DNA of 64,000 nt, from contig NZ_QCZK02000037.1 of the NCBI RefSeq assembly GCF_003347595.2, positions 1 to 64,000 of the forward strand, written 5' to 3'. A model generated the notes under the pieces. That model was not told the origin of the DNA, did not search any database, and worked only from the letters and a program-made list of their open reading frames with translations. This stretch comes from Botryobacter ruber (GTDB lineage Bacteria; Bacteroidota; Bacteroidia; Cytophagales; Hymenobacteraceae). Positions 4,795 to 5,280 of this stretch are shown one piece after another; the first letter of the stretch is position 1; every line of letters starts with the position of its first letter. Made by a program: the position numbers and the translations under genes.

Positions 4795-4822
4795 AAAAAA
4801 GCCCCGCTTTGGGCGGGGCTTC
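4795..4822 (-). terminator. attenuator terminator in the pheA leader
   Basis: On the minus strand AGCCCCGC (4820-4813) pairs with GCGGGGCT (4807-4800), followed by a run of T residues ending 7 bases before the pheA ATG. Its 5' arm AGCCCCG can pair instead with CGGGGCT at 4874-4868 near the end of the leader peptide frame. This gives the mutually exclusive antiterminator and terminator expected of ribosome-mediated attenuation. Confidence 0.9.
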
Positions 4823-4857
4823 GTTAGTTTTGCTTTATGTTGAACAACGCAATAGCA

Positions 4858-4926
4858 TTACCTGTGGAGCCCCGGACGGGTACCAAAAAAGTAAAAGCTA
4901 AAGTAAAAAGCGTTGTGTAAAACCAT
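4858..4926 (-). CDS. Phe/Tyr-rich leader peptide of the pheA operon
   Basis: A 22-codon frame (ATG at 4926-4924, TAA at 4860-4858) in the pheA 5' leader. Codons 7-14 (4908-4885) read AFYFSFYFFG in context. The peptide contains five Phe, all TTT, and two Tyr, all TAC, so seven of eight consecutive codons are aromatic. It starts after an A-rich stretch (AATTAAAAAAGAT). Its last codons include CGGGGCT, the sequence that can disrupt the downstream terminator. A ribosome waiting for charged tRNA-Phe or tRNA-Tyr would leave that segment free; a ribosome at the stop codon would cover it. The peptide itself probably has no other role. Confidence 0.92.
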   Translation of the reverse strand: MVLHNAFYFSFYFFGTRPGLHR

Positions 4927-4944
4927 ATCTTTTTTAATTGCGCT

Positions 4945-4977
4945 GTAATATTACAGAATGTTTTTTAGACTTTCAAA
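4945..4977 (-). promoter_or_regulatory. candidate promoter of the pheA operon
   Basis: On the minus strand TTTG (4977-4974), 20 bases, then TAATATTAC (4953-4945) resemble the Bacteroidota -33 TTTG and -7 TAnnTTTG elements. The start would fall near 4938, just before the leader peptide. The same TTTG-N20-TAATATT arrangement precedes the second DAHP synthase. Confidence 0.6.
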
Positions 4978-5104: not shown

Positions 5105-5280
5105 GCAGGAGCAGAGGCTATGGTGGCAGCTGCAGCAGACTTTCAGGCCGGTTTACCTTAAAATTTACTGCATATCCCGGCTCTGCGCCAGGAGTAGTGG
5201 GTATGGTGGCAGGGGCTTATTGTTTTTTTAGAAATTTATCTTCCAAAACCCGACTGCCCCTTCCACCATACCCACAGCTC
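5105..5280. repeat. cluster of three intergenic GC-rich repeats
   Basis: Plus copies at 5105-5138 (GGCTATGGTGGCAGCTGCAG) and 5188-5220 (GGGTATGGTGGCAGGGGC) and a minus copy at 5254-5280 (CTTCCACCATACCCACAGCT) lie upstream of the pheA promoter, just after DAHP synthase copy 2. Confidence 0.8.

Follow-up and report, generated by a model that had tools for sequence, protein, structure and literature searches.

How is pheA, the gene for prephenate dehydratase, adjusted to the supply of aromatic amino acids in Botryobacter ruber, and does the short leader in front of it act as an attenuator? In the pheL attenuator, a short Phe-rich leader peptide is combined with a terminator before pheA and a competing antiterminator, and the leader of E. 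coli pheA is rich in Phe and is not known to contain Tyr. For the 64,000-nt stretch of DNA analysed here (the window), a preliminary description made from the letters alone had proposed a ribosome-mediated attenuator with a leader peptide of mixed Phe and Tyr codons. A 2010 survey, in the part drawn on here, gives leader-peptide attenuation as shown in Proteobacteria and Actinobacteria and adds Firmicutes (PMC2965389). Closer to the window, sections of two papers are relevant. One describes 5′ elements with structure before pheA and hisG in Flavobacteriaceae, together with strong clues for leader-peptide attenuation (PMC9723704); the other mentions, in 5′ UTRs of Bacteroides, short ORFs that resemble leader peptides (PMC7366714). 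The elements of Flavobacterium psychrophilum share both the phylum and the gene with the window leader; on the other hand, pairing strands, an analysis of Phe/Tyr codons, tandem units and a distribution beyond Flavobacteriaceae do not appear in the sections of that paper considered here (PMC9723704). The idea of attenuation for pheA in Bacteroidota is already in print, and the window leader, on the reading set out below, is another example of a known mechanism.

The 22-codon frame with five Phe and two Tyr codons within eight positions was found exactly where the preliminary description had placed it, and the GC-rich hairpin with a T run was located right before the pheA ATG (Table 1). The T run ends 6 nt 5′ of this ATG, and 69 nt lie between the leader stop and the pheA start. 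Across both strands of the 64 kb, the leader ORF is the sole ATG-started frame of at most 60 codons with at least six F/Y codons in eight. The leader RNA folds better than 200 of 200 shuffled versions (z −4.3). The predicted antiterminator, CGGGGCT with AGCCCCG, is present as a complementarity, but a match as good arose in 6 of 100 shuffles of the intervening region; taken in the window alone it lies within chance, and the case therefore rests on comparison with relatives. The sequence thus holds a run of end-product codons, a terminator between ORF and gene, and an antiterminator that shares the 5′ arm of the terminator.

Table 1. Features of the pheA and aroG2 leaders and of the genes that follow them, in window positions read in the direction of transcription
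Feature	Position	Strand	Remarks
Likely promoter	4977-4974 (TTTG); 4953-4946 (TAATATTA)	minus	20 nt between the two parts; 19 nt before leader ATG
pheA leader peptide ORF	4926-4858	minus	MVLHNAFYFSFYFFGTRPGLHR, then stop; 22 codons
Control codons 7-14	4908-4885	minus	FYFSFYFF, 5 Phe and 2 Tyr in 8
Strand 1	4916-4910	minus	ACAACGC; pairs with 4850-4844
Partner of strand 1	4850-4844	minus	GCGTTGT; complementary to 4916-4910
Strand 2 (antiterminator arm)	4874-4868	minus	CGGGGCT; complementary to AGCCCCG at 4820-4814
Strand 3	4820-4814	minus	AGCCCCG; common to antiterminator and terminator
Strand 4 (terminator 3′ arm)	4806-4800	minus	CGGGGCT
Intrinsic terminator	4821-4795	minus	hairpin 4821-4799, T run 4800-4795
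pheA, prephenate dehydratase	4788-3907	minus	PF00800, 2.5e-58
Aminotransferase class I/II	3893-2715	minus	PF00155; second gene of probable operon
DAHP synthase with chorismate mutase domain, copy 1	2712-1591	minus	PF00793, PF01817; third gene of probable operon
aroG2, DAHP synthase with chorismate mutase domain, copy 2	6441-5347	minus	domain search
aroG2 leader ORF	6614-6552	minus	MLSVNKQAFNQKSICACNGG, then stop; without aromatic run
aroG2 leader terminator hairpin	6509-6485	minus	core identical to that of the pheA leader

Downstream of the leader, pheA, the aminotransferase and DAHP synthase copy 1 form a probable operon. In the source genome, tyrA lies on another contig than pheA. In a Hymenobacter-type locus (L061), however, pheA is followed by an aminotransferase, prephenate dehydrogenase (tyrA) and DAHP synthase, and the presence of tyrA in this gene row fits a sensing of Phe and Tyr together. 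Before tyrA itself, no frame with at least five F/Y codons in eight was found in the stretch read (L171).

We then turn to the relatives. A leader unit was counted where an ORF with at least five F/Y codons in eight was accompanied by a terminator; a first terminator detector missed weak Flavobacterium hairpins that are visible by eye, and it was relaxed before units were counted. In the window's own family, 118 of 150 genomes have pheA, and each of these places was read. The check proposed in the preliminary description, for an aromatic frame and terminator before pheA in Hymenobacteraceae, came out the same way throughout: both were present at 118 of 118 family places, and no place lacked the run or the hairpin. 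One unit stands at 65 of these (54 + 11) and two units at 53 (36 + 16 + 1), the first terminator of one place (L184) being doubtful by eye. Included in these numbers and those of the class-level set below are 27 family and 7 class-level places that enter the conservation counts only; the cross-arm test, the tandem and tree tally, the ribosome model, the promoter scan and the survey of F/Y frames were made without them.

Beyond the family, a phylum-wide sample contained pheA in 206 of 238 genomes. A class-level set of 55 matches in the window's family (3), order or class was read completely, and 48 had a leader unit. The seven without one comprise three of a single genus (L219, L223, L225) and four (L328-L331) whose pheA is weakly related, with 28-31% identity to the queries used. 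In the former three, an open coding sequence which we take by eye to be EPSP synthase-like lies directly before pheA, and for this reason pheA has probably moved into another operon there. Among 22 places read in genomes of the same phylum outside the class, a leader was found in four (L183, L185, L229, L230) and none at the 18 further-out places (L231-L248). Those four carry a Bacteroidia-like pheA together with the Phe/Tyr leader in genomes labelled as outside the class, and leader and gene may have been transferred together. One attenuator family thus appears to stand before pheA in most sampled Bacteroidia, with 0 of 18 further out and 0 of 4 with a weakly related pheA.

A search for named relatives by the window pheA protein alone confirmed none, and a family alignment gave 470 confirmed matches. 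In the best 80 of these 470, which include records titled Hymenobacter, Rufibacter, Chitinophaga, Flavobacterium, Prevotellaceae and others, and among which Pontibacter qinzhouensis is the nearest named relative, 68 had a leader unit (56 one, 12 two); 10 of the 12 without a unit also had no F/Y ORF. Some pheA contigs (L134, L156, L158, L161, L101) stand under Bifidobacterium, Rhizobium, Bacillota, Lentisphaerae and Caldithrix metagenome-bin titles; these are probably misbinned or misnamed, unless the genes were transferred.

The aromatic frame is also specific in its position and content. Both strands of 90 family loci (446,272 bp) hold 122 ATG frames of at most 60 codons with at least six F/Y codons in eight, and all 122 sit within 460 nt 5′ of pheA, with none elsewhere; one locus (L014) yields no such ATG frame, and its leader begins with GTG. 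Phe and Tyr both occur in each of 215 distinct leader peptides, and Trp occurs in 36 of the 215, which made it a conceivable third signal. Within 37 aligned single leaders, four positions of the run swap F and Y and three are fixed, in a pattern that itself admits nothing but F or Y at seven of its eight positions and that excluded a 38th leader with Leu at position 1. Two minor observations belong here. One locus with a Flavobacterium-type pheA leader contains a Flavo-1 RNA (RF01705, 80.1 bits; L187:97-178, minus strand). In many pheA leaders a weakly conserved stretch like AAAGTATAAACC is seen by eye just 5′ of the terminator (about 4841-4821 in the window), and some aroG2 leaders carry it as AAAGATAAACC; it is perhaps a pause site.

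For the comparison of the pairing strands, 39 distinct single-unit leaders were aligned, namely those up to L056 whose peptide contains FG. All 39 share the same DNA in strand 2 (GGGGCT) and in strand 3, while the frame over strand 2 differs: in two leaders (L002, L003) the stop codon overlaps the start of strand 2, and in three (L004-L006) a one-base gap over it turns PGL into RGS. Since strand 2 stays unchanged under different frames, the constraint acts on the RNA. Between lineages, on the other hand, both strands change, from CGGGGCT:AGCCCCG in Pontibacter to CGGGACTT:AAGTCCCG in Cyclobacteriaceae (L102), TCGAGACTTTA:TAAAGTCTCGA in Kordia (L163) and TAGAGGTC:GACCTCTA in Rikenellaceae (L170).

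An earlier scan for ungapped antiterminator pairs missed bulged helices, with 65 of 187 units at or below 5 in 100 shuffles, and was replaced by a cross-arm test, in which the duplex energy of each leader with its own terminator arm is compared with that for the arms of other lineages, identical upstream regions being dropped. Over 51 distinct arm clusters, the own arm pairs better with its own leader (median rank 0.06); a rank of at most 0.05 is reached by 24 clusters and one of at most 0.10 by 31, 4 lie above 0.5, and the window's own cluster of 50 members ranks at 0.18. The associated p of 3.5e-16 is not to be taken literally, because the clusters are not independent samples. The covariance analysis that the preliminary description had suggested thus finds the terminator arm and the antiterminator strand changing together between lineages. 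The second helix of that description, ACAACGC with GCGTTGT, fared less evenly. The two segments are complementary in the window, and in the 39 leaders 88% of the alignment cells of this outer, putatively protecting (1:2) helix are paired; but in 4914-4910/4850-4846 there is a single compensatory pair, A-U in 14 leaders and G-C in 11, and the remaining 14 are unpaired there.

To follow the consequences for folding, a ribosome was represented as a mask reaching 15 nt upstream and 10 nt downstream of the A-site codon, an assumed footprint on which the exact switch codon depends. On a window transcript ending after strand 3, the antiterminator has a probability of 0.63 without a ribosome. This value is 0.84-0.88 for A-site codons 3-5 and 1.0 for codons 6-14; it falls to 0.6 at codon 15, and from codon 16 up to the stop it is 0.0. 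The switch lies where the aromatic run ends. When the full-length RNA is folded at equilibrium, the terminator prevails for nearly every ribosome position (antiterminator about 0.1-0.6 at codons 13-14 and at most 0.3 at codon 11, by the 3′ end used), so that antitermination would need the strand 2:3 helix to form before strand 4 is made. Antitermination in textbook attenuators depends on the order of synthesis.

The same model was run on 239 distinct units, with identical leader units dropped. A first variant, in which every pairing of strand 3 was scored, failed to discriminate (68 of 239 units), and scoring was changed to the specific strand 2:3 helix. With this helix, 228 units form the antiterminator when the ribosome stands in the run, 180 lose it when the ribosome stands at the stop, and 171 do both; for the window and for these 171 units, the model has strand 2 freed by a stall and covered once the ribosome has reached the stop. 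The simple model fails in 68 of the 239; of the 60 failures printed, 44 have their stop 20-33 nt past strand 2. Strand 2 begins a median of 14 nt (5-95%: 9-20) after the last F/Y codon across the 239 units, which is about the reach of a ribosome.

Taken together, conservation in family and class, covariation of the strands and the ribosome-position model support the Phe/Tyr attenuator reading of the preliminary description, and the leader is very probably a ribosome-mediated attenuator that would sense how well both tRNA-Phe and tRNA-Tyr are charged, with pheA, the aminotransferase and DAHP synthase copy 1 under its control. In the mechanism we propose, RNA polymerase would start roughly 10-15 nt before the leader ATG, at a start placed from the predicted promoter, and a ribosome would translate the leader. 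When Phe- or Tyr-tRNA is short, the ribosome would stall in codons 7-14 and leave strand 2 free; strand 2 would then capture strand 3 once it is made, no terminator would form, and the operon would be transcribed. Under good charging, the ribosome would move on and cover strand 2, strand 3 would pair with strand 4, and transcription would stop at the T run. We infer stalling, termination and the response to Phe and Tyr from what the sequence provides directly, namely the parts, their conservation, the covariation of the strands and the geometry of the masked folds.

The promoter-like pair named in the preliminary description calls for a correction. As a sigma-70-like promoter it is weak (9 of 12 positions). 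Promoters of Bacteroidota follow the consensus TTTG-N19-21-TAnnTTTG, and a pair of this type, TTTG-N20-TAATATTA, is found instead, placed as in relatives about 20 nt 5′ of the leader ATG. It scores 8 of 10 against the consensus, a value reached by 15% of shuffled upstream stretches, and the promoter call for the window therefore rests on the relatives. There, a motif of at least 9 of 10 stands before 83 of 144 single leaders, as against 3% of shuffles, and the window pair is probably the promoter of the leader.

Could the leader ORF act on the translation of pheA, by re-initiation or by masking of its start site, and not on the termination of transcription? The ORF lies near pheA, and re-initiation is proposed for bacterial leader genes in the part of one study used here, which, however, places the re-initiation peak of Bacteroidetes at 11-14 bp and expects at least 40 bp for attenuators (PMC4833913). 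The 69 nt of the window fall on the side of the latter. Moreover, at every one of the 118 family places leader and pheA are separated by a hairpin with a T run, and the interval from T run to ATG, short as it is in the window, is larger in some relatives (L017), as it would be for terminators. Translational control is thus an unlikely explanation.

Two further explanations were considered. The hairpin might merely terminate the upstream DAHP synthase gene, a gene of the same orientation whose end lies 420 nt upstream of the leader ORF, and the ORF might be there by chance. But a Phe/Tyr frame precedes the hairpin at every family place read, it is unique in the window and, in the 90 loci, unique to the region upstream of pheA, strand 2 covaries with the hairpin, and in relatives a promoter motif comes right before the leader; we give this explanation almost no credence. 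If, on the other hand, the peptide were a functional microprotein and not a sensor, its retention as a Phe/Tyr-rich peptide across a class of bacteria would be expected. The interchange of F and Y in the run speaks against this, as do lengths and C-termini that vary with frame shifts over an unchanged strand 2, and the tie of frame to terminator at all 118 family places, and we hold a microprotein to be very improbable. The attenuator sensing both charged tRNAs is the reading with which we continue.

In many relatives this attenuator is doubled. A tally on 208 distinct pheA genes, with identical or short proteins dropped, gave 48 with two complete units, 147 with F/Y ORFs but without two complete units, and 13 without an F/Y ORF. 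Two units occur in all five named Hymenobacter loci (L104, L109, L123, L131, L159), in all seven named Chitinophaga loci (L110, L119, L121, L130, L133, L141, L147), in nine loci of the window's own genus with a divergent pheA (L038-L046), and in L211. The tandem form is not universal even within a genus, as in the first 30 loci read of one genus (g5) 24 have two units and 6 have one. A FastTree tree has 8 changes between tandem and non-tandem, with weak deep support.

In tandem loci, F/Y run and terminator are both present twice, once per unit. A promoter motif scoring at least 8 precedes 115 of 144 single leaders and 24 of 47 first units but 0 of 46 second units (shuffles: 15%, 9% and 1% in the same order). 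A motif that stands before about half of the first units and before no second unit indicates that both are very likely carried on one transcript. The units differ in the placement of the stop codon: in first units it comes shortly ahead of strand 2, which starts at a median of +3 from the stop, whereas second units are read on through strand 2 (median −20). Phe and Tyr are present in similar shares in both, so that the units do not divide the two amino acids between them, and the simplest reading is that of two gates in series for the same signal.

Double leaders are known elsewhere. In Salmonella mgtCBR, two leader ORFs also lie in series on one leader RNA; as the part of the paper available to us describes it, they sense different signals, ATP and proline, and mgtCBR is contrasted there with metE, which has two terminators (PMC3641672). 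The tandem relatives described here differ from mgtCBR in having a Phe/Tyr run and a terminator of their own in each unit. A literature search on tandem or double leader-peptide attenuators returned mgtCBR and erm-type pairs, and no series of two amino-acid attenuators was among the matches listed. The tandem form looks new, if confirmed.

A paralogous leader, which like the tandem units of relatives had escaped the preliminary description, lies before the second DAHP synthase gene, aroG2. The hairpin core CCCCGCNNNAAGCGGGG has exactly two mismatch-free places in the 5.84-Mb genome, before pheA and before aroG2, and the two leaders align along their length. In 22 distinct loci of the genus (19 plus L255-L257), the aroG2 leader comprises, by eye, a short ORF, a G-rich strand 2 and a terminator, and in one of the aroG2 leaders (L266) a change in strand 2 is matched by one in the terminator arm, giving CGAGGCCTTT:AAAGGCCTCG. 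The window model behaves much as for pheA, with an antiterminator probability of 0.74-0.82 up to codon 15, 0.1 at codon 16 and 0 from codon 17. The aromatic run, however, is absent: 19 compared peptides contain 0 to 3 F/Y in any eight residues, and they have no invariant residue except the start and no identifiable control amino acid. As a separate observation, the aroG2 of one relative (L263) contains one in-frame TAG.

We tentatively consider, as a possibility that we rather doubt, that the attenuator has been copied and retuned. The aroG2 leader would keep the whole RNA switch, with the Phe/Tyr run exchanged for the partly conserved NQKSI, NLKSI and TNSxxVP, and would answer to another signal, be it another tRNA or a nascent-peptide stall; in relatives, the doubled pheA unit would provide two gates in series on one transcript and thereby make the response to Phe and Tyr steeper or tighter. 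As an alternative to retuning, the aroG2 leader may have lost control without gaining a new signal. For the study of attenuator retuning, the leaders offer a natural series, with interchange of Phe and Tyr, varied placement of the stop codon, gain and loss of a second unit, and a paralogue without control codons.

Among catalogued RNA families, Phe_leader (pheL; Rfam RF01859) resembles the window leader in serving the same gene and gives a weak full-length match (34.7 bits, E 1.9e-4) that lies below the gathering score of 55; no Phe_leader match at gathering was found in the window or in 20 relatives' loci. The window leader differs from pheL in mixing Tyr and Phe codons in one run and in preceding an operon that also includes an aminotransferase and a DAHP synthase/chorismate mutase. 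No T-box or riboswitch was found in the window, in which no Rfam family matched at gathering. Rfam BTnc231 was considered as a Bacteroides pheA leader and set aside: its match was sub-threshold, no family matched at E 0.01 on 17 loci, and one paper passage calls BTnc231 an intergenic sRNA.

Other amino-acid genes of the source genome (C33; loci L172/L173) also have noteworthy upstream regions. An ORF with WWW, MIHELHNAWWWHVGKNF..., and a hairpin with a T run lie upstream of trpE, and a His-rich frame ending in HHQHIHHSS and a stop codon lies upstream of hisG, without an obvious T-run terminator. Finally, between DAHP synthase copy 2 and the pheA leader, the window contains an inverted repeat with 25-nt arms (5192-5280). 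Its arm GCCCCTGCCACCATACCC has 176 copies in the genome at up to two mismatches, as against 0 for the control, and the repeat is a dispersed REP-like palindrome.
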